DNA of 64,000 bases from Terriglobia bacterium. Lineage in GTDB: Bacteria; Acidobacteriota; Terriglobia; Acidiferrales; UBA7541. Location of the stretch: NCBI GenBank assembly GCA_020073485.1, contig JAIQFB010000019.1, positions 1-64,000 on the forward strand, given 5' to 3'. The notes under the pieces are model-generated. The model was not told the DNA's origin. It did not search any database and was given only the letters and a program-made list of their open reading frames with translations. The position numbers were made by a program, and so were the translations under genes. This document shows, one piece after another, positions 7,935 to 28,799 of this stretch. The number at the start of each line of letters is the position of its first letter. Positions within the stretch are counted from its first letter, which is position 1.

Positions 7935-10508
7935 ATGCGCCGCCTTTTCCTTGTAATTGGAATTGTCATTGTCATCGCCGTTGCGGGCGCCGTGGTGTTT
8001 GTGTTGACCTTCAACGTGAACCGGTACCACGACGCCATTCAATCGCAGCTGGAGCAAAGATTAGGCCGCAAAGTCACTCTCGGTGATATGCGCCTGAATC
8101 TATTCCCTCCGCGATTCAGCGTGCAGAATTTGAGCATTGCGGAGGATTCCAGTTTCGGCACGGAGAAGCCGTTCGTGCAGACACAACTGCTGGACGTGTC
8201 GGTAAAACTTCTCCCGCTCCTGAAAGGCGCGCTCGAAATTAATTCCCTGAACTTGCAGCGTCCGAGCGTTGAACTCATTAAGAACCAGCAAGGCGTGTGG
8301 AACTTCTCCACGCTGGGAGCGTCTTCGGTATCCAGTCCGGAAGGACAGCCGTCTGCGCCGGGCGGACCTTCGCAACCGGCAAGTCCGAGTGGACCTCAGC
8401 CTTCACCGGGAGGTCCTGCGGTGCCAAGCGACCAGGCCGGCCAACAGTTTTCGCTGGCCAATCTGGCCATTACGGATGGCCAGGTAGCCGTCACGGACCT
8501 GCAGAGTAAAACGCCCAGGGCGCTTTACGACCATATTGATTTGAACGTATTGAATTTTGCTCCCAACGCGCCTTTCTCCATTAATGTGGCGGCTCGTCTA
8601 CCGGGCCCCGGGACGCAGCAAGTCCGGCTGGAGGGACAAGCTGGGCCAATCGTGCAAGGTCAGCCCGCCTCGACGCCTTTCCACGGCACATTGGAAATCC
8701 AGCAGGTGGGAATCGCCGGTCTGCAGAAGTTTCTTGATTCTCCCGCGCTGGTCAACACGGATGGCGTGCTCTCCGGGCAAACAAAAATCGGGAGCGAATC
8801 CGGAAAGTTGACGGCCAACGGCCAGATGAATTTGCAAAACGCGAAGGTGCGCGGGCTCGACCTGGGTTATCCGATTTCGGCGGACTACGACGTCACGGAT
8901 GATCTGCAAGCCAGCTTGATCACCATCCGCAACACGACCATCAAGCTCGGAACCATGCCGATTCTCGTGAGCGGCACATTCAACGCGGCCCCGAGCCCTG
9001 CCCAAGTAGATCTTCGCATCAAGGCTGACAATGTTTCGATCGCGGAAGCCGGCAAGCTGGCTGCGGCCTCGGGCATGGCTCTCGCGCCGGGAACCACCAT
9101 CGTAGGAAACATGAACGCCGACGTACAGGCGCGAGGGCCGGCCGACAAACCGGCGCTGAGCGGAACCATTTCCGGGCGCGACCTCCAGATCACCGGGAAA
9201 AACATCGTTCAACCGGTCAACATAAAGTCCATCAACCTGGCCTTCAATCCGACTGAGATCCATTCCGATAGTTTCAATGTGACTTCCGGCCGCACCACCG
9301 TCGCCGCTCAATTCTCCCTGCGGCAATATCAATCGAAGTCGCCGCTAGTCGATGCCACGCTCAGTGCCCCCAACGCCGCGCTCCCCGAGGTGCTGTCGAT
9401 GGCCAAGGCGTATGGTGTCACCGGACTGGACAATATCACCGCCGCAGGAACGCTCAGCGCCAATCTGCACGCGACCGGCACAACCGACAAACCAACGATG
9501 AGCGGAACAGTCTCCGGTCACGACGTCCAAATCAGCGGGAAAAGCATCCCTCAGCCCGTTTCCATGAAGTCAATCAACCTGGCCTTCACGCCAACCGAGA
9601 TTCATTCCGACAATTTCAATGTGACGACTGGCGGCACCACCCTGGCTGCGCAATTCGCCTTGCGGCAATACCTTTCGAAGTCGCCGCTGCTGGATGCCAC
9701 GCTCCGCGCCCCGAGCGCAGCGCTTCCCGAAGTGCTGTCCCTGGCCAAGGCGTACGGCATCACCGGACTGGATAAGATCAGCGGAGCAGGCACGCTCAAA
9801 ATGGATCTGCATGCGGCAGGCCCCCTCCAGGCAATGACGTCCGCTGAAGTGGTGAAAGTCCTGAACGGCACGCTCAATCTAAACTTCAATACCATGCGCT
9901 ACGCGGGCAGCGACATCGGGTACCAACTGGCTTCGATTGGAGGGTTCCTCAAGCCGGGTGAAAAGGATCAGGGATTCACCAATATTTCGCGCATGACCGG
10001 CGATATCGCCGTGAAGAACGGCCTCGCTCAAACCAGCAATCTGCTGGCGGCGCTGGACATCGGAAACGTTGCCGTGGCTGGAACCACGAATCTGGTAAAC
10101 GAGGCGCTGGACCTGCGCGTTACCGCCGTGCTCTCCAAGGATTTCAGCACACGCGCCGGCGGAACGGGAATCGGCGGGTATATGAGTACCGCGCTAGCCA
10201 ACAATCAGGGAGAACTGGTGATTCCCGCGATCGTTACCGGAACTTTCGAGAGCCCGAAATTCACCCCCGACTTGCAAAAAGTCGCCCAGATGAAACTGAA
10301 AGGATTAGTGCCGAGTCTCAGCAACCCCTCGGGGGGTGTGGGTGGAATTCTGGGAGGCCTGCTGGGCCAAAAAGGCGGGAGTCAAACTCAGCAACAACAA
10401 CAGCAGCAGCCACAGACACAACCAGAGCAACAACAGCCAAATCCAGTCCAACAACTGATCGACATTTTTGGCAAAAAGAAGCAGCCGCAACAGACACCGC
10501 AGAAATAA
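7935..10508 (+). CDS. AsmA family protein with internal 114-residue duplication
   Basis: The 857-residue protein has an N-terminal membrane helix (residues 5-28), the AsmA opening (NRYHDAIQSQLEQRLGRKVTLGD, then LFPPRFSVQNLSI) and a long beta-rich body with the AsmA C-terminal region. AsmA-type proteins are inner-membrane anchored and thought to act in lipid transport or outer-membrane biogenesis. A 342-bp unit (9159-9500) is repeated in tandem at 9501 to about 9842, giving two copies of a block that opens SGT(I/V)SG.D(L/V)QI.GK. The C-terminus is glutamine-rich (10388-10440). GGAGG precedes the ATG. The DUF4197 gene follows 48 bases later. Confidence 0.85.
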   Translation: MRRLFLVIGIVIVIAVAGAVVFVLTFNVNRYHDAIQSQLEQRLGRKVTLGDMRLNLFPPRFSVQNLSIAEDSSFGTEKPFVQTQLLDVSVKLLPLLKGALEINSLNLQRPSVELIKNQQGVWNFSTLGASSVSSPEGQPSAPGGPSQPASPSGPQPSPGGPAVPSDQAGQQFSLANLAITDGQVAVTDLQSKTPRALYDHIDLNVLNFAPNAPFSINVAARLPGPGTQQVRLEGQAGPIVQGQPASTPFHGTLEIQQVGIAGLQKFLDSPALVNTDGVLSGQTKIGSESGKLTANGQMNLQNAKVRGLDLGYPISADYDVTDDLQASLITIRNTTIKLGTMPILVSGTFNAAPSPAQVDLRIKADNVSIAEAGKLAAASGMALAPGTTIVGNMNADVQARGPADKPALSGTISGRDLQITGKNIVQPVNIKSINLAFNPTEIHSDSFNVTSGRTTVAAQFSLRQYQSKSPLVDATLSAPNAALPEVLSMAKAYGVTGLDNITAAGTLSANLHATGTTDKPTMSGTVSGHDVQISGKSIPQPVSMKSINLAFTPTEIHSDNFNVTTGGTTLAAQFALRQYLSKSPLLDATLRAPSAALPEVLSLAKAYGITGLDKISGAGTLKMDLHAAGPLQAMTSAEVVKVLNGTLNLNFNTMRYAGSDIGYQLASIGGFLKPGEKDQGFTNISRMTGDIAVKNGLAQTSNLLAALDIGNVAVAGTTNLVNEALDLRVTAVLSKDFSTRAGGTGIGGYMSTALANNQGELVIPAIVTGTFESPKFTPDLQKVAQMKLKGLVPSLSNPSGGVGGILGGLLGQKGGSQTQQQQQQQPQTQPEQQQPNPVQQLIDIFGKKKQPQQTPQK

Positions 10509-10556
10509 CCAGCAAGAGAAAACCAATGTGGTTTGCTGCCGCGAAGAGAGGACGAA

Positions 10557-11351
10557 ATGAAAAAACTGACCTTAGCTATTGCGGCCACGGTTCTGCTAAG
10601 CCCCGGCGTTTTTGCGGACCGGTTCGCCCTGAAAAATGGAGACCGCCCGGTTGGAGACATCCTAACGTCAGACGACGAGGCACTGATCCTCACGTTTGCC
10701 CAGTCCGATGAAATTACCAAACGATTGGGATTGGGAACTCGCAGCGCGCTGAGCGATTCAAAAATCGCCTCGGGGCTGAAAGAAGCTCTCCAAGTCGGCG
10801 CGAACAACACCGTCAAACTCACCGGCAAGCGCGACGGATACTTCGGCAACGAGGCCATAAAGATCCTCATGCCGAATAATCTGCGTCCGGTTGAGAAGGG
10901 ACTCCGTGCCGTCGGTTATGGGCCGAAGGTGGACGATTTTATTCTCAGCATGAACCGAGCAGCCGAGGCCGCCGCACCAGCCGCAAAAAAGATCTTCGTG
11001 GACGCCATCCTGTCGATGAGTTTCGACGATGCCCGCAAAATCCTCTCCGGAGGAGACACCGCCGCAACGGACTACTTCAAAAACAAAACGAGCACTCAGC
11101 TGACAGCCGCATTTCGTCCCGTGGTGGAGAAAACCATGAATGAGAACAGCGTGACGCAGCAGTACAACGCTCTTCTCGGGCAAGCCCAGAGCATTCCATT
11201 CCTGAAAAGCCCAAGCCTCGACGTCACGCAATACGTGGTCTCCAAAGCCCTGGACGGACTGTTCTATACACTGGGCCAGGAAGAAAAAAAGATCAGGAAA
11301 GACCCCGTGGCGCGGACTACGAGTTTGCTGAAAGAGGTCTTCGGCAAGTAG
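10557..11351 (+). CDS. DUF4197 family secreted protein
   Basis: The start at 10557 ([20 protein letters not shown]) gives a clean signal peptide and follows GAGGACGAA; the frame is open 24 bases further upstream. The mature part shows the DUF4197 pattern: [19 protein letters not shown], a central [20 protein letters not shown], then [19 protein letters not shown]. Members are periplasmic or outer-membrane associated and of unknown function. It probably shares a transcript with the AsmA gene. Confidence 0.8.
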
Positions 11352-11459
11352 TGCTTCCCCTCAAATCGCAGCCATTTCCGATTAAATCAACCAGATTTTA
11401 AAACGGAGATTTGATCCGCTCGGCAAACGGCGCGTTCTGCCTTAGAATCCTGTGAACTT

Positions 11460-12089
11460 GTGAGTCGCCATCACCAAATCGCCGCATTTATTCTGGCCGG
11501 TGGCGTCAGTTCGCGCATGGGCCGGGAAAAAGGTTTGCTTGCGGTGGGAGGCGAGCCACTCATCGTCCGAACCGCTCGCGTGGTCGAGCCGCTCGTCAGC
11601 GAAGTTACCGTTGTCGGTCCGCCCGAGCGCTATGCCTCCCTGGGACTGCGCGCCATCGCGGATCAGGACATTGCAGGACTCGGCGGGAAAGAGGCGGTAC
11701 GAGCGCCGCTGGTCGGAATAGCGACGGCGCTCAGCGCAACGAAAGCGCCCTGGAATCTGATCCTGGCGTGCGACCTGCCGTATCTCACTGCCGAATGGCT
11801 GGGTTGGCTGCTCGCGCGCGCGATCGTGTCAGAGGCGCAAATTGTGGTGCCACGTTCTCCCGGGGGACTGGAACCACTGGCGGCCGTCTATCGCATGGAA
11901 TGCGCCGCGGGGATCGTTGCAGCACTCCAGCGCGGCATTCGGAAAGTAACCGACGCCATGATCGAATTTCGCATGGAGTGCTTGTCAGAAAGCGATTGGA
12001 CCGGGCACGATCCGGGAGGCCGAGTCCTGAGAAACATGAATGCCCCCTCGGACTATGAGGAGGCGAAAAAGTGGATCGAGACAAAATGA
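11460..12089 (+). CDS. mobA: Molybdenum cofactor guanylyltransferase MobA
   Basis: The 209-residue protein starts with a GTG and has the diagnostic LAGGVSSRMGREKG nucleotide-binding loop (residues 12-25), followed by RTARVVEPLVSEVTVVG and the acidic LILACDLPYLT motif. MobA transfers GMP to molybdopterin to make the bis-MGD cofactor used by nitrate reductases of the NasA/DMSO reductase family. It converges on the end of the nitrate assimilation cluster, which contains such an enzyme, so a supporting role there is likely. Confidence 0.88.
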   Translation: MSRHHQIAAFILAGGVSSRMGREKGLLAVGGEPLIVRTARVVEPLVSEVTVVGPPERYASLGLRAIADQDIAGLGGKEAVRAPLVGIATALSATKAPWNLILACDLPYLTAEWLGWLLARAIVSEAQIVVPRSPGGLEPLAAVYRMECAAGIVAALQRGIRKVTDAMIEFRMECLSESDWTGHDPGGRVLRNMNAPSDYEEAKKWIETK

Positions 12090-12139
12090 GGCTTGCGCAG
12101 CGGCTCGCACGCCATCAGGGGTAGATCCCGCAACGAGGT

Positions 12140-12922
12140 TCAAATCGACGGCGACAGACCGCTGGTTTCGACCGAAGCGCGATCAATTTCCTCAGGAGTT
12201 TCCGAATCCGAATACTGCCCCGCAACGCCTCCGACAATCAGCAGCGCGGGCGCAGGGAGATTCGAGGTGGCCGCTAACTTGTCCAGCGTGCTGGCATGAA
12301 TCTGTTGGCGTCCGGTGGTCGCGGAAGAGACCACCAGGCAACGGGTGCGAGGATCGAATCCGGCGGCACGGAACTTCGTTGCCAGGTCCCCGTAGCCCGC
12401 GCCTGGCATGTAAACGACCACCGTCGTGTCGGTGGAGATGGAGTTGCCCTCAATGGGCGCGTCCTCCCCGCTGCAAAGATGGTTGCTCAAGAACAATACC
12501 TTGGAGGCGAGTCTGCGATCGGTGAGCGGAATTCGCGCCGATGCGGCCGCGCCAAACGCCGCCGTGATTCCCGGCACGACCTCGAACTCGATTCCCGCGC
12601 GGCGCAACGCATCCATTTCCTCGCCCGCGCGTCCATAGAGCAATGGGTCGCCTCCTTTCAGGCGAACCACCGACAGCCCCTCTTCCGCGAACGTTACTAT
12701 GCGCGAATGGATTTCCTCCTGGCTGATGTGCGGCCGTCCGCAGCGCTTTCCCACATTTTGCACGCGGGCCGATGGCGCGGCGAGCTCGAGAATTTCCGGG
12801 TTGACCAGATCGTCGTGTAAAACGACGTGGGCTTCGCGCAAGATCCTGCAGGCTTTCATCGTGAGCAGTTCCGGATCTCCGGGACCCGCGCCAACAAGGT
12901 AGACTTTGCCCTTCATACGCAT
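12140..12922 (-). CDS. cobA: Uroporphyrinogen-III C-methyltransferase (SUMT)
   Basis: The product methylates uroporphyrinogen III at C2 and C7 to precorrin-2, the first step towards siroheme, the NirB cofactor. The motifs GKVYLVGAGPGDPELLTMKA, VVRLKGGDPLLYGRAGEE and VPGITAAFGAAA are the SAM-binding and substrate signatures. The start taken is the ATG at 12920-12922 (MRMKGK), preceded by GGAAGATC. An upstream GTG at 12970 overlaps the stop codon of the preceding gene and would add 16 residues. It lies last in the nitrate cluster. No CysG-type dehydrogenase/ferrochelatase domain is fused, so siroheme completion must be encoded elsewhere. Confidence 0.9.
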   Translation of the reverse strand: MRMKGKVYLVGAGPGDPELLTMKACRILREAHVVLHDDLVNPEILELAAPSARVQNVGKRCGRPHISQEEIHSRIVTFAEEGLSVVRLKGGDPLLYGRAGEEMDALRRAGIEFEVVPGITAAFGAAASARIPLTDRRLASKVLFLSNHLCSGEDAPIEGNSISTDTTVVVYMPGAGYGDLATKFRAAGFDPRTRCLVVSSATTGRQQIHASTLDKLAATSNLPAPALLIVGGVAGQYSDSETPEEIDRASVETSGLSPSI

Positions 12923-12966
12923 ATGATCTTCCCGCAAACTAACCATCGGCCGGCGTTCGATCCCCG

Positions 12967-14508
12967 TCACGCGAGTGAATGTTTTGGAATGCGCCCACCC
13001 TTTTCCCGGATAATGGCTTGCGCAACTTCTTTCATGGTTTTCCGCATCTTGCGGCTCTGCCTGCGCAGCGTGAGATAGGCTTCTTCCTCGCTCACTTGCA
13101 GTTCCCGTTGCAGAATTCCCTTGGCGCGTTCGACAATTTTGCGGGCCTCGAGTTCCTCGGAAAGTTGCGAGCTTTTTTCCTCCAGGCGCGCCATCTCGAT
13201 TTCGGCGCCCACGAAAAACCCGATCGTGGAAAGCAGCCGGATTTCGCGCCGCGTGTAGGAGTGCGGCTGGCGGTTCTGCAGATTAATCACGCCGACAACC
13301 TGGCCGCGGCAGAGGATCGGCACCGACAGGAAAGCTTCGTAGCGGTCTTCGGGAAGCTCATTGAAGAATTGGAAGCGCGAGTCCTGGAACGCATTGCACG
13401 CCACTGAGACGGGCTGCCTGTTTTTTGCCACCCATCCGGTGATTCCTTCTCCCAGGCCGAGCCGCAAATGGTCCACTTCCTCCGGATGGGGATTCTTGGA
13501 CGCCCGCAATACGAGTTCATTGTCTTCCAGGACGTACACGAAACAGGAATCGCACTTCACCAGGGATGCGGCGAAGTCCATGATCCGCCGCAGCACTCCG
13601 CGCAACGAATTGGAGCCCGACATCCGGCTTCCAATCTCATGCAGAAAATCCAGCCCAAGCTCCTTGTGTTTCTCGCGAAGAATTTCGGCGGAGCGGGCAG
13701 CCGATTCCTCGACCAGATAACCCATCCTGGGATGCGTTGCTTCCATGTCCGCTCGCAACCCGAGCGATCCCAAATGCTCGGAGGTGGTCGGCCCGACCGA
13801 AGCGATGACGATTCGTTCCATCCTGGCGCGCACCAAATCCTCGATGCCCATGGCGGCAGCCACCTGGAACAAATGCTCGGCTTGCGCGGCGGCCGTCAGC
13901 AGGACCACATCGATTTCACCTTTGGAGATCATCGTCGCCGCTTCCTGCAAGGGCACCACATCCTCAGGCAAAGACCAGCGGTACACGGGAACGCGGGTTA
14001 CGCGCGCGCCGCGTTCGCTCAATCCCGTCAGCAGCCCCGTGCAGGGGACGCCGTATTCCTGAACGGCGATGCGCAGTCCTTTCAATTTCCTGGATCCGCC
14101 GAAATCGTCGAGCGCGCGCAGCACTTCCCGCCAGGTGTTTGGCGCGGGCGCGACCAGGTTTGGTTTCACGCCGATTTCGCTCAGGACGGCGGCGGGCTTG
14201 GGGCCCCGCGCCATCACCTGCGCCCGCCCAAGCGCGGCCCGCAGTTCCGTCCGCGCGTGCACGTTTTCAATCGCCGCCATCAAGCCGCGGATCCCCGCTC
14301 CGGTAAGAAAAATCACCAGGTCGAATTGCCCGTCCATAAGTCCCGCGGCAAACGAGAGGGCCTGGGAGTCGGATTCCAGCTTCACTTCCCGCATGGCTGG
14401 AGCCACGACGGGTTTTCCGCCAAAGGAAACGATCAACTTCGATATTTCCTTGGCGTGCCGTGTCTCTAAGGACAGCACGCGTAGTCCGCTGAAGCTCGCA
14501 GTAGGCAT
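12967..14508 (-). CDS. hemD: Uroporphyrinogen-III synthase (HemD) fused to GAF and ANTAR domains
   Basis: The 513-residue protein has three parts. Residues 1-268 are a HemD fold (FSGLRVLSLETRHAKEISKL, LVIFLTGAGIRGL, IVIASVGPTTSEHLGSLGL), the enzyme that closes hydroxymethylbilane to uroporphyrinogen III. Residues about 300-440 are a GAF domain (GLGEGITGWVAKNRQPVSVA, VPILCRGQVVGVINLQN). Residues about 453-503 are an ANTAR domain (KIVERAKGILQRELQVSEEE, LRRQSRKMRKTMKEVAQAII). ANTAR domains bind paired RNA hairpins and prevent termination, as in NasR of Klebsiella. The gene lies inside the nitrate operon and immediately before SUMT, so it may supply siroheme precursor and also regulate the operon. 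Confidence 0.9.
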   Translation of the reverse strand: MPTASFSGLRVLSLETRHAKEISKLIVSFGGKPVVAPAMREVKLESDSQALSFAAGLMDGQFDLVIFLTGAGIRGLMAAIENVHARTELRAALGRAQVMARGPKPAAVLSEIGVKPNLVAPAPNTWREVLRALDDFGGSRKLKGLRIAVQEYGVPCTGLLTGLSERGARVTRVPVYRWSLPEDVVPLQEAATMISKGEIDVVLLTAAAQAEHLFQVAAAMGIEDLVRARMERIVIASVGPTTSEHLGSLGLRADMEATHPRMGYLVEESAARSAEILREKHKELGLDFLHEIGSRMSGSNSLRGVLRRIMDFAASLVKCDSCFVYVLEDNELVLRASKNPHPEEVDHLRLGLGEGITGWVAKNRQPVSVACNAFQDSRFQFFNELPEDRYEAFLSVPILCRGQVVGVINLQNRQPHSYTRREIRLLSTIGFFVGAEIEMARLEEKSSQLSEELEARKIVERAKGILQRELQVSEEEAYLTLRRQSRKMRKTMKEVAQAIIREKGGRIPKHSLA

Positions 14509-14526
14509 TGGCCCTGATCTTAAATT

Positions 14527-16008
14527 CTAAAAACGAAAATTTGTCTCCACGTAACCGAATTGCCCGTTTGGCCCGCCGGGGAAAATGTTGGCGATCACGG
14601 TCTTTCCCCAGGCATAGGCGTAATACGTTGTGATGCTGAATCCATGCCCCAAAGGCACATCCAGGCTGGCGTCCCAGACGTTCGCCAGGCTGCGCGCTCC
14701 GCCACTGGGCCGGCCGGTATAGCCGAATGTGTTCCCCTGAAACGCTCCCCCGCCCCCGTACCAGAGGTCCTTGGGACTGGCCAGGCGCAAGGCGTGAAGT
14801 TCGCTGCGCACCGCGAGGGCATGGGGCAGGCGGAACGCCGCCGATCCGTAGAAATCATCATTGTTCATCATATTGTAGAATGGGAAGCGATCATAGGGAC
14901 GCGGCGTGGGCATGATTTGAAAAAATGTGCCGTGGATGTTGTCGGTGGAATTGGAGTCGCCGCTGCCGTAGGAGTATCCCGCGCTGAACCATGGGTTGAT
15001 CCGATGCACGGGCGGCTGCCATCCAAGTTCGCCCACGAATGCTTCCGCCTTCTGCGTTTGCACTCCCCAACCGCCGTTTTGAAACGCTCCCCACCCGAGG
15101 AAGTCGAATTGACCTTCGCGATCGGTGTGCAGGACGTGGACGTAGTCGGCGCCGTACGTGCCGATACGGATTTGACCCGTATCGGCGGTGCGGACGGCCG
15201 CGGTGCGATTATCGGTTTTCAGAACGCCCGCCCGGTCGTCCATGTATCCGATGGCGAAAACCCGCAATTCACCCGCGTTGTTCTTTGTGGTGACCGGAAG
15301 CGTGAAGGAGCCGTAGAAAAGATTGATATTCAGCTCGTCCATTCCCTGGACCTGATATACGCCCTCGGCGGGGCGCGCGCCGAAGAGCGTAAAATTGGAA
15401 TTCCCCGCGTTCAGCCCCAGCTGCACCCCGTCAAAACTCCTCTGCACGGCGGAGAACGAAAAATCCCCGATCAACCGCTGAGCGATTCGCGTATTGACCA
15501 GTGTCGCCAGCGTCTTATCTTTCGGCTGGACCTCCGCGCCGTCGAGAAACGTGAAACGGCCCAGTTTTGCCTTGCCCTTCGCCGGAAGTTTGAATCCGAT
15601 GTAGGCTTGCTTCAGGAATCCGCTGGCAATATTGCGATCGCTGCCGTTGGCCGCGTAGTATGTCGCGCCCAGGCCGAGTTGCCCCAGCGGCGCGGGCTGC
15701 ACAGCGCTGGGCGGCAAATCAACGATGCCGTCCGCCGCGCCCTCCAGCAGCCACTCAAACGCTTCCGTCTTCTGGCCGATGCCAATTTTCAACAGGGAAT
15801 GTTCGAATCCATAGGCATTTTGTCCCTGGGGCGGCTGGAAAAAGTCCCACGCCTCGGTCCGAAATCGCCAGCTCATCGAAACGTTGAGCGGGCCCAGCTT
15901 GTGCGGGCTGTCCTTGGCCGGCGCCGCCTGCGGCTGCTGTTGCGCGAAGAGCGGAGCGCAAGCGAAAACAGAAGTCATTAGCAAGGTTACTTTCAGATTT
16001 CGCAGCAT
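14527..16008 (-). CDS. Outer-membrane porin of the alginate-export type in nitrate cluster
   Basis: The 493-residue protein has a signal peptide (cleavage after FAQQQ) and a long amphipathic beta-strand body ending in the typical outer-membrane C-terminal phenylalanine (FGYVETNFRF). Its layout (N-terminal LNVSMSWRFRTEAWDFF, internal LGRFTFLDGAEVQPKDKT, AVQRSFDGVQLGL) fits the alginate_exp beta-barrel family. Its place between narK and hemD, with short gaps on both sides, suggests a nitrate or other anion channel in the outer membrane; the substrate is inferred only from position. Confidence 0.75.
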   Translation of the reverse strand: MLRNLKVTLLMTSVFACAPLFAQQQPQAAPAKDSPHKLGPLNVSMSWRFRTEAWDFFQPPQGQNAYGFEHSLLKIGIGQKTEAFEWLLEGAADGIVDLPPSAVQPAPLGQLGLGATYYAANGSDRNIASGFLKQAYIGFKLPAKGKAKLGRFTFLDGAEVQPKDKTLATLVNTRIAQRLIGDFSFSAVQRSFDGVQLGLNAGNSNFTLFGARPAEGVYQVQGMDELNINLFYGSFTLPVTTKNNAGELRVFAIGYMDDRAGVLKTDNRTAAVRTADTGQIRIGTYGADYVHVLHTDREGQFDFLGWGAFQNGGWGVQTQKAEAFVGELGWQPPVHRINPWFSAGYSYGSGDSNSTDNIHGTFFQIMPTPRPYDRFPFYNMMNNDDFYGSAAFRLPHALAVRSELHALRLASPKDLWYGGGGAFQGNTFGYTGRPSGGARSLANVWDASLDVPLGHGFSITTYYAYAWGKTVIANIFPGGPNGQFGYVETNFRF

Positions 16009-16065
16009 TCATTCACCCCCTCGATTATCAATCGGTCACCCGGCGGCAAAACCTTAGGCGGCCAA

Positions 16066-17424
16066 TCAATCTCCGTTCTCCGCGATCAGTGCGGGAGCGC
16101 TTCGCGTTACCGCTTGCGGCGTTTCCGATTCCTGAAACCGCAGCGGGAAGGCGCAAAACGCCGCAATGGCTACCGCAATCCCCAGCAGAAACAGGGCTCG
16201 CGAACTGGAAATGCTCTCCGCCTTGAACAAGAACCCTGCGAGCACGGCACCCACGTTGCCGCCCGCTCCCACAATGCCGGACACCGAACCAATGGCGCGC
16301 GGCTGCACCAGCGGCACAACGGCATAGGTGACTCCGCAGGCCATGCAGACGAGCACGCCGAAAAACAGATACGCGGCGGTAGCTGAGCCCAGGCTGGTCA
16401 GGCGCGAGAAAATCGTCAGCGCCACCCCTTCGGCGAATACGACCAGTCCGAGAAGCAGCGAACGCCCACGCAGGCCCCAAATATTTCCGGCCCAATCGCC
16501 GGCGATTCCGCCCATGGCGCGGGCAAAAATATTCATCATTCCGGTGGCGCTGGCGAGCAATCCCGCCATCTTCAGGCCGAGATGAAACGAGTCCTTGAAA
16601 TAAAGCGCGGCCACATTGTCGATCGTGATTTCCACCCCGAAGCAGGCGGCATACAGCAGAAACAGGAGCCAAACGCGGTAATCGCCCGCCGCTTCCCAAA
16701 ACGCCTGCGACCCTTTTCTGGAGGCAAACGGACTTCCGTCCGGCGTGTCTTGCGTGAAGCGATAATAGAGAATGCCCGTAAGAAACATGCCGATTCCCGG
16801 GACAACCATGGCCAGGCGCCAGCCCAGGAAACGGTCCGCACCCAGGCCCACGATGGCCCCGGCAAGCAGCGGCATGCACCATTGAGCCACGCCTCCGCCG
16901 AGATTTCCCCAACCGGCGGAAAATGCGTTAGCCGTGCCCACCACGCGCGGCGCGAACATCACGGACGTGTGGTGCTGGGTGATGACGAAGGACGCTCCGA
17001 TCAGCCCGATCGCCAGGCGGAAAAGCAGAAACGATTGATAGCTGTGCGCGAGGCCAATGCCCATCACCGGAAATGCCCCGAGCAGCAGCAATGCGGAGTA
17101 CGTCCGCCGCGGCCCGAACCGGTCGCACAGCCAGCCGGTAAGCAGCCGCGCCAGCACGGTAATCGCCACCGATGCGATGACCGTATTGCCGATCTGCGCC
17201 TTGGTCAGCTTCAAGTCGTCGCGCACCACCGCCATCAGAGGCGCGATTCCAAACCAGGCGACAAAGCAAAGAAAAAAAGCGAACCAGGAAAGATGAAACG
17301 CGCGCATCGCGGGCGAGCGGAAGTCCAGCAGATTGACGCGCGTGGCTTTCCCCTCCGCGTCACACCCCAATCTGGTGTACCCGCCGGCTGTGTACGGAAT
17401 CTTCGTGTTCGGCGATCGGCCCAT
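16066..17424 (-). CDS. narK: Nitrate/nitrite MFS transporter
   Basis: The start at 17422-17424 follows GGAGGAACGTG. About 12 membrane helices are visible. The NNP-family nitrate signature GWGNLGGGVAQWCMP (matching GWGNxGGG) follows transmembrane helix 5, and the symmetric segment GIVGAGGNVGAVLAG follows helix 11. Arginines in RLLTGWLCDRFGPRRTY and FRLAIGLIGASF are family-typical. It brings nitrate into the cytoplasm for NasA. It lies between nirD and the porin gene in the operon. Confidence 0.92.
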   Translation of the reverse strand: MGRSPNTKIPYTAGGYTRLGCDAEGKATRVNLLDFRSPAMRAFHLSWFAFFLCFVAWFGIAPLMAVVRDDLKLTKAQIGNTVIASVAITVLARLLTGWLCDRFGPRRTYSALLLLGAFPVMGIGLAHSYQSFLLFRLAIGLIGASFVITQHHTSVMFAPRVVGTANAFSAGWGNLGGGVAQWCMPLLAGAIVGLGADRFLGWRLAMVVPGIGMFLTGILYYRFTQDTPDGSPFASRKGSQAFWEAAGDYRVWLLFLLYAACFGVEITIDNVAALYFKDSFHLGLKMAGLLASATGMMNIFARAMGGIAGDWAGNIWGLRGRSLLLGLVVFAEGVALTIFSRLTSLGSATAAYLFFGVLVCMACGVTYAVVPLVQPRAIGSVSGIVGAGGNVGAVLAGFLFKAESISSSRALFLLGIAVAIAAFCAFPLRFQESETPQAVTRSAPALIAENGD

Positions 17425-17458
17425 CACGTTCCTCCTGTGCTCCAAGATTCAGACATTG

Positions 17459-17902
17459 CTACGCACGAATGTTCCGGATATCTGAATCGTCGATTCCCAT
17501 GCGAGGCGGCTTGGGGACCACGGGCAGGCCGCCATGTTCGATACAAATGCCCGGTGCCTGCTTTTTTTCAGCGCCCTCCAGCGGCATTTCCACCAGGATG
17601 AAGCCGGCTTCGACGCGCACGCGAAACGTTTCCACGCAGGCCAAGGTGTCCGCGGGGCGCTCCACATCGCCCGTATCGAGCCCTACCTTCCAAGCATGAA
17701 GCGGGCAAACCACCGTGTTTCCGGAGACGATTCCCTCCGACAACGGCCCATCCCTGTGGGGGCATCGATTGGAAATGGCCACGAAGCGGTCACCGAGATT
17801 GAAGATCGCGATTTCCCGTTCGCCGAATCGAACCGATCGTCCCTCGCGAAGCGGGATGTCCTCGCAGCGCGCGGTCCGGATCCATTTTGGTTTGTCGTTC
17901 AT
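17459..17902 (-). CDS. nirD: Assimilatory nitrite reductase small subunit NirD (Rieske-type)
   Basis: The ATG at 17900-17902 overlaps the nirB TGA by four bases. The 147-residue protein contains the Rieske [2Fe-2S] ligands CPH and CPLH (RCPHRDGPLSEG, TVVCPLHAWKVGLDTG), with the usual 15-20 residue spacing between the pairs. NirD supports NirB in NADH-dependent nitrite reduction to ammonium. A C-terminal extension of about 30 residues (EKKQAPGICIEHGGLPVVPK) is longer than in E. coli NirD. Confidence 0.9.
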   Translation of the reverse strand: MNDKPKWIRTARCEDIPLREGRSVRFGEREIAIFNLGDRFVAISNRCPHRDGPLSEGIVSGNTVVCPLHAWKVGLDTGDVERPADTLACVETFRVRVEAGFILVEMPLEGAEKKQAPGICIEHGGLPVVPKPPRMGIDDSDIRNIRA

Positions 17903-20352
17903 AGGGGTATCCTCTCGATTGGTTCGATTTGAATGAATTGCGTGGGGTGCCGCGGCGTTTCGCCTTCGAGCCACGCGTCTTGCGCGAGCGCTTTCGATTT
18001 GTGCAGCCGGTCGAGCAATCCCTGCCGGACGGGCTCGGGAGCGTACACGGTTTCCTTGCGGACCTTTTCAATGCCCAGCCGCTCCAGAAAGCCGTAGGTG
18101 CGTTCCAGATAATTCGCGTTCTCCCGGTAATACTGGAAAAAAATCTCCGCGGCGCTGAGGGCTTCTTCGGTGCTGGCGACGGTGACGAGCAGGTCCGCCT
18201 TGCGAACCGATTTTCCGGCGGCCCCGCCGACCACCACCTGCCAGCTTCCCTCCTGCCCGATGATCCCGATATCCTTCACCGTCGCCTCGGCGCAATTGCG
18301 CGGACAACCCACCGCGCCCATCTTCACTTTGTGCGGCGTGAAAAGATTTTCCAGGCGGCGTTCCAGTTCGATGCCCGCGCTGGTGGAATCCTGGACGCCG
18401 AACCGGCAAAATTCCGTGCCTACGCAGGTTTTCACCATGCGCACGCCCTTGGTGTAGGCCTGGCCCGAAGGCATTCCCAGGTCCGCCCAAATTTTCGGCA
18501 AATCGGATTTGCGCACGCCCAGCAGATCGATTCTCTGGCTCCCAGTGATCTTCACCATGGGCACGTTGTACTTGTCGGCCACGTCGGCGATGCGCCGCAG
18601 CTCGGCGGGCGAGGTGACGCCGCCGCGAATGCGCGGCACCACGGAAAACGTTCCATCCTTTTGAATGTTGGCGTGCACGCGGTCGTTCACGAATCGCGCC
18701 GAGCGGTCCTCTTCGTGATCGCCGCACCAAATCATGTCCATCATGTAGGACAGAGCGGGCTTGCAGACTTCGCAGCCGGTTCCGTTCCCGTAAATATCCA
18801 GAACTTCCTGCACGGAGCGAAGTTTCTGGCTGCGCAGGATTTCCCGCAGGTTGTCTTCGGCAAACGGGACGCATTTGCACAAAGTTTTTCTGGTCTCTTC
18901 CTGGAATTCAGGGGCGACGGCCTTGAGCAGTTGCTGGCAGAGCTCGGTGCAACTGCCGCATCCGGTGGAAGCGCGCGTGCATTCCTTGAGTTGCGCCAGG
19001 GTGTTGACGCCCTTTTTGTGGATGGCCTGGATGATGGCGCCCTTGCTGACGCCCAGGCAGCCGCACACCGTCTCGTGATCCGGCATTTGCGCGGTGTCCA
19101 GCCCGGCGTCCGCAACGGGGCTCGGAAAAAGCAGTTGCTTGCGCATGGCGGTGAGGTCTGTCCCGGCCCGCAGCCAGTCCATGTAGCGGTGGCTGTCGGA
19201 GGTATCGCCGACCAGAATGACGCCCGCGAGTTTTCCGTCCCGGATCGTGATTTTTTTGTAGATGCCCAGCGCGGCGTCCTCGTAGCGCACGGCATCGGTT
19301 CCCGGAGCCTTGTCGTTAAAATCGCCCGCCGAAAATACGTCCACGCCCATGATTTTCAGTTTCGCGGCCAGCACCGTGCCTTCGTAGGTGGGCCCCTTGT
19401 TTCCGGTGATCGTGGCCGCCAGCACTTTTCCCTGCTCAAACAGCGGCGCAACCAGCCCGTAGCAAATGCCTTTGTGCTCGACACATTCGCCCACGGCAAA
19501 AATGTCCGGGTGCGAAGTCTCCATATGATCGTTCACCACGATGCCGCGATTAACCTGCAGGCTGGCTTTGCGCCCCAGCTCCGTGTTCGGACGAATGCCC
19601 GCGGCGACCACCACGAAATCGGCTTCGATGCTGGGCCCTTCCTTGAACGCCACGCCTTCGGCCTTGCCGTTGCCGAGAATCTCCGTGGTGCTTTTGTTCA
19701 GCAGAACTTTCACTCCCATGCATTCCATTTTGGCTTTCAGGTAGCCGCCGCCGGTAGGATCGAGTTGGCGCTCCATCAGCCGGTCCATCAGGTGCACGAC
19801 GGTGACGTCGCATCCCTGCACTTGCAATCCGCGCGCCGCTTCCAATCCCAGCAATCCGCCGCCGATGACCACCGCTTTGGTGCCGGGGCGCGCGCGTTCC
19901 AGCAGGGCGCGCGTGTCATCGATGCTGCGAAACACGTACACTCCTTCTTTTTGAACCCAGTCGAGCGATGGAATCAGGGGCGAGCTTCCCGTCGCCAGCA
20001 GCAGCTTGTCGAACGCGGTAACGCTGCCGTCGTCGACGGTCACGGTCTTTTGCGCCGGGTCAACGCCGGTGACGCGCACACCGAGCCGCAGACGAATGCC
20101 GTTTTGCTCGTACCATTCCAGGCTATTGAGAACGATGTCGTCGGCTGATTTCTCGCCGGCGAGCACCGAGGAAAGCAGGATGCGGTTGTAGTTGACGTGC
20201 GTTTCGTCGCCGAAGATGGTGATCTCGAATTTCTTCGAGTGCTTCAAAATCTGTTCGACGCAGGCGACGCCGGCCATGCCGTTTCCGACCACCACGAGCC
20301 GCTCCCTATTCGCGTTCCCGTTCCCGTTAGATTGTTCATTTGAGCCGTTCAT
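17899..20352 (-). CDS. nirB: NAD(P)H-dependent nitrite reductase large subunit NirB
   Basis: The 817-residue protein has FAD and NAD nucleotide folds (VVVGNGMAGVACVEQIL; VVIGGGLLGLEAARGLQV). Two BFD-like [2Fe-2S] motifs follow (CGCLGVSKGAI...TGCGSC and CKCVPF...GTGCEVC). The C-terminal sulfite/nitrite reductase half carries the siroheme-4Fe-4S ligands CVGTEFC and CPRNC. It reduces nitrite to ammonium in the cytoplasm with electrons from NADH. Gap to nasA is three bases and overlap with nirD is four, so translation is coupled. All key cysteines are present. Confidence 0.95.
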   Translation of the reverse strand: MNGSNEQSNGNGNANRERLVVVGNGMAGVACVEQILKHSKKFEITIFGDETHVNYNRILLSSVLAGEKSADDIVLNSLEWYEQNGIRLRLGVRVTGVDPAQKTVTVDDGSVTAFDKLLLATGSSPLIPSLDWVQKEGVYVFRSIDDTRALLERARPGTKAVVIGGGLLGLEAARGLQVQGCDVTVVHLMDRLMERQLDPTGGGYLKAKMECMGVKVLLNKSTTEILGNGKAEGVAFKEGPSIEADFVVVAAGIRPNTELGRKASLQVNRGIVVNDHMETSHPDIFAVGECVEHKGICYGLVAPLFEQGKVLAATITGNKGPTYEGTVLAAKLKIMGVDVFSAGDFNDKAPGTDAVRYEDAALGIYKKITIRDGKLAGVILVGDTSDSHRYMDWLRAGTDLTAMRKQLLFPSPVADAGLDTAQMPDHETVCGCLGVSKGAIIQAIHKKGVNTLAQLKECTRASTGCGSCTELCQQLLKAVAPEFQEETRKTLCKCVPFAEDNLREILRSQKLRSVQEVLDIYGNGTGCEVCKPALSYMMDMIWCGDHEEDRSARFVNDRVHANIQKDGTFSVVPRIRGGVTSPAELRRIADVADKYNVPMVKITGSQRIDLLGVRKSDLPKIWADLGMPSGQAYTKGVRMVKTCVGTEFCRFGVQDSTSAGIELERRLENLFTPHKVKMGAVGCPRNCAEATVKDIGIIGQEGSWQVVVGGAAGKSVRKADLLVTVASTEEALSAAEIFFQYYRENANYLERTYGFLERLGIEKVRKETVYAPEPVRQGLLDRLHKSKALAQDAWLEGETPRHPTQFIQIEPIERIPL

Positions 20353-20355
20353 GCT

Positions 20356-22557
20356 TCACCGTCCTCCGCGAGATTGAGGGGAACTCGCCGTCTTCAGCAC
20401 GCGTACCGCGCACTGCTTGTAATTGGGTTCGCGCGAAATCGGATCGAACGCGCTTTGCGTCACCTGGTTGACATTGGTCTCCGCGAAATGAAAGGGCATG
20501 AACACCTGTCCGGGCGCGATGATCTCCGTGATGCGCAACTCGATGCCGCTCACCGTGCCGCGCTTGGACTCCACGTTGACGCGATCATGCGGCTTGAGGT
20601 GGAGCGCGGCGGCGTCGCGCGGATTCATTTCCAGCCAGGCATTCGGAGACATGCGCTCGAGGATGGGCACTTGCCCGGTCTTCGTGCGCGTGTGCCAGTG
20701 CTCGACGGTGCGTCCGGTATTCAGGATCAGGGGAAATTCCGCGTTTGGCTGCTCGGGGAAGGCTTTCCACTCGACGCAAATTAGTTTTGCCTTCCCGTCT
20801 TCGGTCGGAAAAATGCCGTCCGAATACAGGCGCGTGGTCTTTACCTCGGTGCTGCCCGCCGGGAACGGCCATTGGATGCCGCCGCTCTTTTCGATCCAGT
20901 CGTAATCCATGCCGGAGTAATCGCAGAGCCGCCCGGACGAAACTTTTTTCCATTCCTCGAACGCGTCCTTCGGCTGCGTCCAGCCGGGAAACAGTTCTTC
21001 GCGGCAGCCCAGCTTTTCGGCCAGTGTGAGAAAAATCTCAAAATCGCTGCGTGCTTCGCCCGGAGGGTCGACGGCGCGGTTCACCTTGCTGACTCGCCGC
21101 TCCGAATTCGTGTATGTGCCTTCCTTCTCGCCCCAGATCGCGGCAGGGAGAACCAGGTCGGCCAATTCGGATGTGGGCGTGGGATGAAAACCGTCCTGCA
21201 CCGCGAAAAATTCCAGGTTTTCCAGGCTCTGCGTGAGGATGTCCAAATTGGGATAAGAAACGATCGGGTTCGTGGCGATGACCCAGAGCGCGCGGATTTT
21301 TTTCGCCAGGATCGCTTCGATGATGTCCGGATAAGCCAATCCGCGCGATGCCGGTATGCGGTCGGCCGCGATGCCCCATAACGCGGCCAGTTCCTCGCGA
21401 TCCCCAGCGCTCTCAAATTTCCGGTAGCCGGGCAAGCTGGAGGTGAAACCTGCCTCCCGCGTTCCCATGGCGTTGCACTGTCCGGTAATCGAAAACGGCG
21501 AGGCGCCGGGACGTCCGACGTGTCCGGTGATCAACGCGAGATTGTTGATGGTGTTGACCGTGTCGGTCCCTTTGGTGCTGTGATTCACGCCCATCGTCCA
21601 ACCGATGAAGGGAGCCTTGGCGTTGCCGTAGATCCAGGCCGCCTTGAAAATCTGCTCCGTCGTGAGGCCGGTGATTTGGGAAACGTACTCCGGCGTGTAC
21701 GCGCGAACGGATTGCTCGAGCGCTTCAAATCCGGTGGTGTGTTGCGCGATATATTCGCGGTCCACTAAATTGTTTTCGATGAGCAGGTGGATCATGCCGT
21801 TGATGAGCGCGATGTCGGAGCGCGGCTTGAGCGGCAGAAAAAAATCGGCCATCATGGCGGTCTTGGTCACGCGCGGATCCGCGACGATGAGCGTCTTGTT
21901 CGGATTGACGTCGAGCCACTGGCACAAGATCGGATGATTGTCGGCAATGTTCGCGCCGATCAGAAAAATCACGTCGGCGACGGCCAGGTCCTCATACGAT
22001 CCCGGCGGCCCGTCGCTGCCGAATGAGCGCTTGTAGCCGGAAACCGCGCTGGACATGCATAGCGTGGTGTTTCCATCGAAGTTGCTGGTTCCCATTCCCA
22101 GCTGCACCAGTTTGCCGAGCGTGTAAAACTCCTCGGTGACGAGCTGGCCCGTGCTCAGCACGCCCACCGCCTCGGGCCCGTATTTCCGCTGGACGCCGGT
22201 GAATTTTTCCGCCATCGTCGCCAGCGCTTTGTCCCAATCCACACGGACCAGCGCGCCGTTTTTGCGCAGCAGCGGATAGCGCGCCCGGTTGGAAGCTTCC
22301 AGCGAGTAATGTTCGGAGAGCCCTTTGGGACACAGGGTTCCGAAGTTGGCGGCGTGATCGGGATTGCCGCGCACGCTCACCGCGCGGCCGTCCTTCACAC
22401 CGACCAGCATTCCGCAGCCCACCGAGCAATATCCGCAGGTGGTGCTTACCCAACGATCGGGAATTTTTTGCGCCGACGTATATCCCATCAACGCATCGGT
22501 GGCGTACTCGTATTTGTCGTTGAGGATGTCGAGGCCCAGCGCGCGCTTCAGATTCAT
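20356..22557 (-). CDS. nasA: Assimilatory-type nitrate reductase catalytic subunit (molybdopterin oxidoreductase)
   Basis: The 733-residue protein has the N-terminal [4Fe-4S] motif CGYCSVGC with the fourth cysteine in TLCPKG, then molybdopterin domains (TLCMSSAVSGYKRSFGSDG; GANIADNHPILCQW) and the C-terminal molydopterin-dinucleotide domain (EHWHTRTKTGQVPILERMSP). This is the Nas/NarB pattern: no signal peptide, hence cytoplasmic, reducing nitrate to nitrite. It does not carry the extra C-terminal BFD-type [2Fe-2S] domain seen in some NasA enzymes. The ATG overlaps the stop of the upstream iron-sulfur/anchor gene (ATGA), pointing to that protein as its redox partner. Confidence 0.9.
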   Translation of the reverse strand: MNLKRALGLDILNDKYEYATDALMGYTSAQKIPDRWVSTTCGYCSVGCGMLVGVKDGRAVSVRGNPDHAANFGTLCPKGLSEHYSLEASNRARYPLLRKNGALVRVDWDKALATMAEKFTGVQRKYGPEAVGVLSTGQLVTEEFYTLGKLVQLGMGTSNFDGNTTLCMSSAVSGYKRSFGSDGPPGSYEDLAVADVIFLIGANIADNHPILCQWLDVNPNKTLIVADPRVTKTAMMADFFLPLKPRSDIALINGMIHLLIENNLVDREYIAQHTTGFEALEQSVRAYTPEYVSQITGLTTEQIFKAAWIYGNAKAPFIGWTMGVNHSTKGTDTVNTINNLALITGHVGRPGASPFSITGQCNAMGTREAGFTSSLPGYRKFESAGDREELAALWGIAADRIPASRGLAYPDIIEAILAKKIRALWVIATNPIVSYPNLDILTQSLENLEFFAVQDGFHPTPTSELADLVLPAAIWGEKEGTYTNSERRVSKVNRAVDPPGEARSDFEIFLTLAEKLGCREELFPGWTQPKDAFEEWKKVSSGRLCDYSGMDYDWIEKSGGIQWPFPAGSTEVKTTRLYSDGIFPTEDGKAKLICVEWKAFPEQPNAEFPLILNTGRTVEHWHTRTKTGQVPILERMSPNAWLEMNPRDAAALHLKPHDRVNVESKRGTVSGIELRITEIIAPGQVFMPFHFAETNVNQVTQSAFDPISREPNYKQCAVRVLKTASSPQSRGGR

Positions 22558-24122
22558 GCGGCCGCCTTTCCCTGGTACAGATACGAAGCGGCCATGTTCT
22601 TGGGAACCACGCTCACGAAAAACAAGTAGCGGCCGAGAATTTCACCGGCCAGCGCCAGCGCAAGGGACATGTACGCGCCATAGACGTTGGGCATGGACAG
22701 CGGCACAACGATGCCGCCGAGAAAAAGCAGCGCGCCGCGGGCGAAAAGTCTGGAAGCAAAAATCGTGGAGAGCAATTGCGCCGATGCGCGCAACTCGAAC
22801 GAATCGGACGACGTCAGCAACAGGAAGCGCGCGGCCTGGTTGAGGATTTGTCCGCCCGCCGCTGCCAACGCCACCAGCAGCAACCCCCTCCGGTCCCCGA
22901 TGCCCACGCCGGCGGCCAGCAGCGAGCCCAGCAATGCACCGGTCAGAAAAAATTCGGCGACGGTATATTTGGTGTTCCATGCGGGACGCGCCTGCACAAG
23001 ATAGATGCACGCGCTCGCGGCAACTCCCGCGATGCCGAACAGGGAAGTCAGCGCGCCAAGGCCCACGCTGCCGGGAATGCGGAACCAAAGCCACAAGGAA
23101 TAAACCGCGGCGACTCCGGAGAACAGGGAGAACAGCAGCACTTCCCGGCTCAGCCACGAACGTTTCCACATCTTCAGCGCGCGATAGGCAAACGCCGGCC
23201 GCCCAAGATGCATGGTGGAAGCGCCCAGCGCCAGGCTCCCGGCAAGCAGTGACACCAGAGCGGCGGCGCCCAGGTGCGTCGCTTTCCCGGTCAATTGCAG
23301 CAGCCAGATCGCGGAGAACGTTCCGACCGAGAGTTGCGTCAACACCGTCATGAATACCAGCGGCCAGTGCGGATCCTCCGGGCGCACGCGCCCCAGGTCC
23401 ACTTTGCGCGTATCCGGCGGCAAGGGAGCCGCGGGCAGCGTGATGCGCGTGGTGGAGATACTGTCGTCGGCGGAGGGAAGTCCCGGCGCGTTGGCGCTGG
23501 CCGCGTAGTTCTGCTTCCACTCCAAGATATTCACGATTTCAATTTCGATGGCGCTTTCGGGACACGCGCTCACGCATGCCGGTTCGCGCCCTTCCTCCAG
23601 GCGGTTGTGGCACATGTCGCACTTGCCCACCACGCCGCGCTCGGGGTTGTACTGAGGCACTCCGTAGGAACAATTCCACGTGCAGTACTGGCAACCGATA
23701 CACGCGTCCGCGCTATGGATGACCACGCCCGTGACGGGGTTTTTGGAATAGGCGTCGACCGGACAACCCTTCAGGCAGGTAGGTTCCACGCAATGATTGC
23801 ATCCCATCGACAAATGCAGGCGCTGTGTGTTCGGATACCAGCCGCCTTCGATTTCGCCCACGCGCCGCCAGTTGATGTCCGCCGGATTACCGTTTTGTTC
23901 GTTGCAGGCCACCACGCAGCACTTGCAGCCGATGCACTTGCCCATGTCGAAATGAAAGCGATATTGCTCGCCGGCGAGCAAAGCACGCTGCGGAATCTTC
24001 GCGGTATCGGGAGCAAACGACGCGCCGCACGCAGGCGACTCCCGGCCAACCCCGCGGCTCTTCGGAGTCACCAGGAAATGAGGACTCGGTTCTTTCACTC
24101 TCTCGAGCAATGGCAATGACAT
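22554..24122 (-). CDS. DmsB-DmsC-like fusion: four-cluster ferredoxin plus membrane anchor
   Basis: Residues about 50-205 form a DmsB/NrfC-type electron-transfer unit with four cysteine groups (CIGCKCCVVAC; CNHCVEPTCLKGC; CIGCQYCTWNC; CDMCHNRLEEG...CVSAC), enough for four [4Fe-4S] clusters. From about residue 255 to the end there are roughly eight membrane helices matching DmsC quinol-oxidising anchors, including MHLGRPAFAYRALKMWKRSW and LSREVLL. DmsB and DmsC are normally separate; here they are one 522-residue chain. It is the first gene of the nitrate operon and overlaps nasA, so quinol-to-NasA electron transfer is the likely job. The ribosome binding site is weak (AAGGG). Confidence 0.85.
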   Translation of the reverse strand: MSLPLLERVKEPSPHFLVTPKSRGVGRESPACGASFAPDTAKIPQRALLAGEQYRFHFDMGKCIGCKCCVVACNEQNGNPADINWRRVGEIEGGWYPNTQRLHLSMGCNHCVEPTCLKGCPVDAYSKNPVTGVVIHSADACIGCQYCTWNCSYGVPQYNPERGVVGKCDMCHNRLEEGREPACVSACPESAIEIEIVNILEWKQNYAASANAPGLPSADDSISTTRITLPAAPLPPDTRKVDLGRVRPEDPHWPLVFMTVLTQLSVGTFSAIWLLQLTGKATHLGAAALVSLLAGSLALGASTMHLGRPAFAYRALKMWKRSWLSREVLLFSLFSGVAAVYSLWLWFRIPGSVGLGALTSLFGIAGVAASACIYLVQARPAWNTKYTVAEFFLTGALLGSLLAAGVGIGDRRGLLLVALAAAGGQILNQAARFLLLTSSDSFELRASAQLLSTIFASRLFARGALLFLGGIVVPLSMPNVYGAYMSLALALAGEILGRYLFFVSVVPKNMAASYLYQGKAAA

Positions 24123-24258
24123 CAGTTGGGCCCTTAGCTTCCTGTTCGCCTGTACCGGCTGCCGCGCGTCGCCAGCTGCAAATCGACGGGCCGAAAGTCG
24201 CCCGCAAATAGACGGGTTCCTAGCGTGCCGCGCAAAATGCCGCGCACAATGCGACTGC

Positions 24259-24277
24259 GGAGTTCCGAAAGAACTCC
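24259..24277 (-). promoter_or_regulatory. Perfect 7-bp hairpin in the nitrate operon leader
   Basis: GGAGTTC and GAACTCC flank a five-base loop about 140 bases before the first start codon of the operon. It is not followed by a T-run. It may be part of a regulatory leader structure, but the loop is not the A1-G4 hexaloop expected for ANTAR targets. Confidence 0.4.
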
Positions 24278-24360
24278 CTAATTTATCTGGCGGAGACCAC
24301 TTGGTGTCCGGGCGGATCGAAGATGCTAAACGGCCTGCACTCTCACTTCCGACATGGAAG

Positions 24361-28702: not shown

Positions 28703-28799
28703 ACGGACGGCGCCACATGACGATTCGAGTTAAGGGAAGTTTACGCCAGCTCCCTCATTCGAGCAAATGACGGAACCCGGAATTCAAGGGCCGGCAGGA

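Follow-up and report, generated by a model that had tools for sequence, protein, structure and literature searches.

A HemD-GAF-ANTAR fusion protein in an acidobacterial nitrate operon and a two-hairpin leader RNA beside its relatives

Why does one gene of a nitrate operon join uroporphyrinogen-III synthase (HemD) to a GAF domain and an RNA-binding ANTAR domain, and what would such a protein control? Acidobacteriota are abundant soil bacteria in which few regulators have been studied. The gene lies in the window, the whole stretch of 64,000 nucleotides analysed here from a Terriglobia bacterium (contig JAIQFB010000019.1), and a preliminary description made from the letters alone had placed it at 12967–14508 and left its strand unstated. 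These coordinates are correct, and the strand is minus.

The reading frame runs unbroken for 513 codons from an ATG at 14508 to a stop at 12967 and, by Pfam and by its relatives, encodes HemD, GAF, and ANTAR domains in one chain, as had been claimed. All three score well above their Pfam cut-offs: HEM4 (uroporphyrinogen-III synthase) at residues 21–266 (13711–14448, minus; E 1.2e-37), GAF (GAF_2) at residues 300–435 (13204–13611, minus; E 6.7e-19), and ANTAR at residues 448–500 (13009–13167, minus; E 4.9e-17), the last with 61.9 bits against a curated cut-off of 27.3 and also seen in the own-genome search. The structure prediction proposed in the preliminary description, made from 18 aligned sequences (mean pLDDT 80.9), recovered a HemD fold and a PtsP-type GAF fold. 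Predicted residues 8–278 match T. thermophilus HemD (1wcx, Z 26.0, 27% identity), in line with the sequence match, and residues 280–445 match PtsP GAF domains (3ci6_A, Z 20.9, 32% identity; 3trc, Z 20.2); the NCBIfam PtsP model also matches the GAF domain, under that model's cut-off. A long helix (262–298) is predicted to run from HemD toward GAF and another (420–470) from GAF into the ANTAR part, with pLDDT below 50 over residues 283–299. The fold matches listed include no ANTAR structure, that comparison having barely probed the ANTAR part. Neither a NIT nitrate-sensing domain nor an OmpR-type DNA-binding C-terminus is among the Pfam matches of the fusion; its C-terminal half is occupied by GAF and ANTAR instead.

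The surrounding operon reads nasBC-nasA-nirB-nirD-narK-porin-fusion-SUMT, all on the minus strand. In its first gene (22554–24122; Pfam), the iron-sulfur (DmsB-like) and membrane-anchor (DmsC-like) subunits of the nitrate reductase form a single nasBC-like chain. Then come a nasA-type molybdopterin nitrate reductase gene (20356–22557), which is over the Pfam cut-off and gives sub-threshold matches to the NCBIfam models of formate dehydrogenase and assimilatory nitrate reductase; nirB, for the large subunit of the siroheme nitrite reductase (17899–20352; TIGR02374, 916 bits, over cut-off); nirD, for the small subunit (listed frame 17459–17974, with an in-frame ATG near 17902), named from its position after nirB and from cysteine/histidine motifs spotted by eye; a narK-family nitrate/nitrite transporter gene (16066–17445; TIGR00886, 282.6 bits, below the cut-off of 311.7); and an Alginate_exp-type outer-membrane porin gene (14527–16008; Pfam). 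Downstream of the fusion lies SUMT, for uroporphyrinogen-III C-methyltransferase (12140–12970; TIGR01469, 249.5 bits, over cut-off). Relatives of nirD follow nirB in loci L038, L041, and L042. The neighbourhood given earlier (porin, SUMT, and nasA-nirBD-narK) is therefore borne out by Pfam and NCBIfam, with nirD assigned by place and motifs. Only 18 bases separate the porin gene from the fusion, and a 4-base overlap joins the fusion's stop to the listed SUMT frame; a single transcript is therefore likely.

The fusion recurs in other genomes. A contig scan with the fusion protein returned 29 loci, all in records titled Acidobacteriota or subgroups thereof; five copies on other contigs, 75–80% identical, extend from residue 1 to residue 512 or beyond, a sixth (66%) covers 1–506, and a seventh is truncated by its contig end at residue 143. 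In a class-wide search, 214 of 299 genomes gave any match (E 1e-20), and near full-length matches in one frame came from four of them besides the window's own genome, each a member of genus g63 (family f6); G348, from outside the 299-genome draw, holds another such match at 80% identity. In family f11, 18 fused loci were fetched from 15 genomes, and the three domains share one frame in 17 of them; in L084, the ANTAR domain sits in a second, overlapping frame. A sequence error joining two separate genes, which the preliminary description had named as a way in which it could be wrong, is contradicted by the full-length relatives on other contigs and by these f11 loci.

How often the fusion arose was addressed with trees. 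In the HemD tree (L068 and L141 dropped beforehand), a window-type clade (7 rows, 100/100) stands apart from an f11 clade (18 rows, 97/99); in the GAF-ANTAR tree the two fused clades are again apart, with stand-alone GAF-ANTAR proteins between them and the f11 row L075 outside the other 16. Each best tree needs two label changes for the fused state. In the AU test, a single fused clade was not rejected, with p values of 0.097 for GAF-ANTAR (the contig-end-cut L059 dropped) and 0.228 for HemD (L136, L137, L138, L140, and L052 dropped). Two independent fusion events are thus suggested by the best trees, and one clade is still compatible with the AU test.

The count of architectures and neighbourhoods that the preliminary description had called for places both fused clades largely among nitrate genes. 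Nitrate or nitrite genes lie upstream in 7/7 window-type fusions having upstream sequence (the window and L037–L042), those of L037 being narK and the porin gene only, and nirA-like or nas genes lie within the fetched stretch at 13 of the 18 f11 loci, where the reductase is of the siroheme nitrite/sulfite reductase kind (Pfam, L081). SUMT is immediately downstream on the same strand in the window and L041, and is the next gene on the opposite strand in L042, L043, and L059 (the last contig-cut and not known to be fused). Five f11 fusions (L070, L071, L074, L076, and L078) are without nitrate genes nearby, and G230, G159, and G239 each hold one nitrate-linked and one non-linked f11 fusion. GAF-ANTAR proteins without HemD, with 60–67% identity over the matched stretch, are encoded less than 2 kb from an ammonium-transporter gene in L047, L048, L054, and L061. 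The window's own genome holds two HEM4 genes besides the fusion and three ANTAR genes in total; its HEM4 on contig C22 was not retrieved by the window's HemD at E 1e-6. On contig C17 (L066:9761–11511), the fusion has a split counterpart, a stand-alone HemD gene directly 5′ of a GAF-ANTAR gene that likewise stands alone; genes for transporters and a DAHP synthase lie beside the pair, and none of the four neighbours scanned is a nitrate gene.

If the ANTAR domain acts on RNA, a target should be found in the leaders of these operons. Published ANTAR targets are described as two hexaloop hairpins with a terminal C:G pair, A at loop position 1 (A1), and G at position 4 (G4) (PMC3369931, PMC7496416, PMC8164766), and in the EutV-RNA structure G4 is reported to make the sole base-specific ANTAR contact (PMC8934654). 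Canonical A1/G4 dual hairpins were absent from 13 nirA leaders (stem of at least 4, gap of at most 40 nt) and from the window's leader. A C1/G4 form was first picked out by eye, after the A1/G4 scan: the f11 nirA leaders share two hairpins, H1, with 5–7 pairs, and H2, of the form GCTC[6]GAGC. Eight nirA leaders and three ANTAR/amt loci were aligned, leaving out L072, L073, and L075 (8-nt H1 loop) and L082 and L083 (no clean H1); 94.5% of cells in these 11 sequences are paired. For H1, both sides changed in four of six pairs, giving 10 such cells versus 4.0 in shuffles, with 0 of 500 shuffles as high. The H2 stem is invariant in this alignment and hence gives no covariation support either way.

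A covariance model, R1, was built from the alignment. Over 70 loci it gave 42 matches at E≤10, including strong ones outside the training set and others in the window's own genome; among 299 genomes, 23 matches, spread over 19 of them, reached E≤1e-4, and ANTAR genes are present in 160 of the 299. For 22 of the 23 matches, and for 12 of the 13 from outside the training set, the contig also holds an ANTAR gene less than 9 kb away; a rough chance bound of 1e-22 assumes 3 ANTAR genes per 5 Mb and treats the matches as independent, though the genomes concerned are related and fall into two families. The lone exception is on a 9.4-kb contig (G226:C175) of a genome with its ANTAR genes on other contigs, and the gene after the RNA there belongs to the same protein family as at the amt loci. 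Fourteen of the 23 matches precede nirA, and all 14 adjoin a HemD-GAF-ANTAR gene (its frame broken in G284), whose ANTAR is the sole one at E≤0.001 in 10 of the 14 genomes, a second being present in four. The other nine lie at loci with an uncharacterised protein family, an ammonium transporter, or a DUF4118-ANTAR gene. The presence of the RNA at both nirA and amt-type loci ties this RNA family to nitrogen uptake and reduction in general. The RNA target in the relatives is, on these grounds, well supported, as is a regulatory role of the fusion in nitrate/nitrite assimilation.

Two arrangements of the RNA away from nirA are of separate interest. In L067:7264–12095 (contig C34 of the own genome, minus), an ammonium transporter gene, a DUF4118-ANTAR gene, an R1 RNA (9653–9712), a gene for a 181-aa protein with no Pfam family, and a second transporter gene occur together; the RNA is the genome's strongest R1 match (E 9e-7), and parts of the gene set recur in other genomes. 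L042:6110–11406 holds what reads as a two-component version, with a DUF4118 histidine kinase, a receiver-GAF-ANTAR protein, and, behind an R1 RNA (8813–8872), a gene for a 194-aa protein and an ammonium-transporter gene. In addition, an extra hairpin with a six-base loop lies 5′ of H1 in L069, L058, L061, L117, L122, and L123, so that some leaders may hold three.

The loops were compared with the published code in 27 of the 30 listed RNAs. G4 is constant in both loops of all 27, and a C:G pair closes the loop in 26 (H1) and 27 (H2); loop position 1 is C in 15 (H1) and 18 (H2), and the published A is mostly absent, occurring in 1 and 2, respectively. The H2 counts are biased because the pattern first used to collect H2 fixed G4 and admitted just C or T at position 1; H1 was not selected by loop letters, though R1 was learned from it. 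The three RNAs dropped (L072, L073, and L083) also read as G4 in their second loops; the loop of H1 is 8 nt long in L072 and L073. The linkers between H1 and H2 measure 17–52 nt in the 27 RNAs. An actinobacterial ANTAR survey accepted linkers of 2–25 nt (PMC8164766), and adding 20 nt to the linker is reported to have abolished EutV antitermination (PMC8934654).

At the window itself the signal is of a different kind. Rfam at gathering thresholds over 10000–30000 detected only a tRNA; R1 with filters off reached at best 8.8 bits over the window's operon, on the other strand, and 2.2 bits at its leader, compared with 14.9 bits in L041. Two candidate ANTAR hairpins, aligned in L041 and L038, are nevertheless present upstream of nasBC on the minus strand: alpha, CTTC[CATGTCG]GAAG (24346–24360), C:G closed with a 7-nt loop, and beta, CGGACAC[CAAGTG]GTCTCCG (24291–24310), with hexaloop CAAGTG and one stem mismatch. 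A pair of this kind arises in 16, 5, and 18 of 1000 shuffles of three leaders, under a rule written after the pair had been seen. A looser pattern occurs in four of 399 genomes (G000, G348, G192, and G176; reversed control, 0), each time ahead of nasBC or nirB. The full-length fusion is encoded in each of the four genomes, and in G348 and G192 it shares a contig with the hairpin pair; the G348 leader is that of L041 and the G192 leader that of L038. Positions 1, 2, 4, and 5 of the eight loops are C, A, G, and T, letters that the pattern itself demanded, and no covariation was seen across the four leaders. The alpha/beta pair is a plausible candidate for the ANTAR target of the window's operon. 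The earlier proposal that ANTAR controls nitrate assimilation therefore stands for the protein family, through synteny and the dual-hexaloop RNA at the relatives' nirA, and more weakly at the window's leader, where a related hairpin pair takes the place of that RNA.

Our explanation of the locus, which we consider probable as a whole, is that the fusion regulates nitrate/nitrite assimilation as a one-component RNA-binding protein with a HemD module. Its ANTAR end would bind the C:G-closed, G4-bearing hairpin pair in the 5′ leader of the adjacent nitrate/nitrite operon, and binding would raise expression of the operon, including the siroheme enzyme NirB (NirA in the relatives). The PtsP-like GAF domain may read nitrogen status, and the HemD module may either make uroporphyrinogen III for the adjacent SUMT or read its own substrate or product; operon expression would thereby be kept in step with siroheme supply. 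Of these steps, control of the nitrate-to-ammonia genes via RNA is itself probable. For the GAF signal, the closest structures are those of PtsP, whose GAF domain is reported to bind glutamine (PMC4848567), and GAF-ANTAR proteins without HemD lie near ammonium-transporter genes; nitrogen status is therefore a first guess and nitrate a second, the former seeming at least as likely as the latter.

How the protein would act on its leader is a further question. The preliminary description had favoured antitermination, and an intrinsic terminator overlapping the second hairpin is given for about 30% of published matches in ANTAR-bearing organisms, being common and not universal (PMC3369931). Terminator-like hairpins follow H2 in 6/30 RNAs versus 4.5 in shuffles, and the 3′ arm of H2 can pair downstream in 24/27 versus 21.4 expected, neither a clear excess, so antitermination at an intrinsic terminator that overlaps H2 gains no clear support. 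The same lack of a clear excess favours action through translation or Rho, or repression in place of activation, and we regard such alternatives as a serious possibility that falls short of being probable; H2 ends about 60–160 nt before the listed nirA start in 10 of 13 f11 leaders and not over the start, which speaks against them (in L073, L080, and L084, the longest listed nirA frame begins at or before H2 and the true start is unsure). It is also conceivable that the hairpins serve another RNA-binding protein and that the fusion is near them incidentally, given the same RNA at amt loci with DUF4118-ANTAR proteins. With every nirA-type RNA adjoining a fusion gene, and the fusion the only ANTAR protein found in most of those genomes, this is very improbable.

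A second choice concerns the HemD half, which could be enzyme or sensor. Another, higher-scoring HEM4 is present in each of 20 f11 fusion genomes checked and in G192 (27 genomes searched), and the fusion's HemD activity is thus not needed for haem in the f11 genomes; in G168 (84% complete), HEM4 occurs only in the fusion and in a chain of HemD with uroporphyrinogen decarboxylase (HemE). Chains of this type, about 700 aa long with a HemD of the same subfamily, were seen in L100:1609–3717 and L101:9852–11903, with L099 and L102 alike in length and HemD part. On a Deinococcus plasmid (L136:3003–6828), a nirB-nirD-hemD set encodes a HemD 40% like the window's, linked to nitrite genes and without a regulator. 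The tyrosine of the Q-x-Y-G motif, which we take to be important for catalysis, is conserved in every fusion aligned, 7 of the window type and 18 of f11, and in T. thermophilus HemD, whereas two plasmid proteins (L138 and L140), taken as being of the NnaR type from length and place, have histidine (QLHG versus QEYG in the fusion); the inactivity of NnaR can therefore not simply be transferred to the fusion. A working, siroheme-dedicated synthase, with GAF-ANTAR regulating other targets or riding along, would suit the kept tyrosine, SUMT as the next gene, the HemE-fused and nirBD-linked members of the subfamily, and the gene content of G168. Having a separate higher-scoring HEM4 in 20/20 f11 genomes to contend with, and leaving the RNA at the adjacent operon unexplained, it is possible and rather doubtful. 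A dead enzyme retained as a sensor of hydroxymethylbilane or uroporphyrinogen III has a precedent in NnaR, whose HemD domain is reported to be inactive in S. coelicolor and is proposed to sense these ligands (PMC11162112, PMC6277429), its role being stated as unclear in print (PMC11162112). The second HEM4 in the same genomes agrees with this and the histidine-for-tyrosine difference does not, and we hold a dead sensor to be quite possible, if not yet likely.

A broader reading of the whole is put forward tentatively, as one that we would not yet call likely: the fusion may be a trigger enzyme acting on RNA, with HemD sensing or making the siroheme precursor and gating ANTAR; HemD regulators may have arisen separately in Acidobacteriota (RNA) and Actinomycetes (DNA); and a wider C1/G4 ANTAR-RNA nitrogen regulon at nirA and amt may exist in Acidobacteriota. 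If this were true, the supply of the cofactor would directly set how strongly the operon encoding the cofactor-dependent enzyme is expressed. Under our preferred explanation, a HemD-bearing regulator of the adjacent operon, NnaR is joined by another HemD-regulator fusion of different build that would act on RNA and has a candidate target already mapped, so that the role of the HemD domain becomes testable in vitro; a nitrogen regulon of ANTAR target RNAs in Acidobacteriota is also indicated, and a relaxed C1/G4 loop code would escape search models that demand A1.

A literature search found no paper joining ANTAR with HemD, and its matches for ANTAR with uroporphyrinogen-III synthase or with Acidobacteria were, by title, on other subjects. 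The closest precedent of the fusion, absent from the preliminary description, is actinobacterial NnaR (SCO2958, MSMEG_0432, and Rv0260c), which is required for nitrate/nitrite use and, like the fusion, combines an N-terminal HemD domain with a regulatory output and occurs in nirBD-narK-siroheme clusters; the fusion shares the feature of a HemD in a nir operon (PMC6277429, PMC11162112). NnaR differs in its OmpR-type DNA-binding output, in place of GAF-ANTAR, and is described as limited to Actinomycetes (PMC11162112). T. thermophilus HemD has the same fold as the HemD part and is, unlike the fusion, a stand-alone enzyme. NasR of Klebsiella oxytoca is likewise an ANTAR regulator of nitrate assimilation acting via a two-hairpin leader RNA, but it has a NIT sensor domain, loops preferring A1/G4, and no HemD (PMC7496416). 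On the RNA side, the R1-type RNAs resemble the targets of EutV and other ANTAR proteins in their dual hexaloop hairpins and G4 (PMC3369931, PMC8934654) and share the terminal C:G pair with NasR selection (PMC7496416); in contrast to EutV-type targets, they mostly have C in place of A1, linkers of the greater range given above, and, within the R1 training set, a constant GCUC/GAGC second stem. Overall, the fusion would work like NasR in acting on RNA and like NnaR in coupling HemD to an output, and is a member of neither family.
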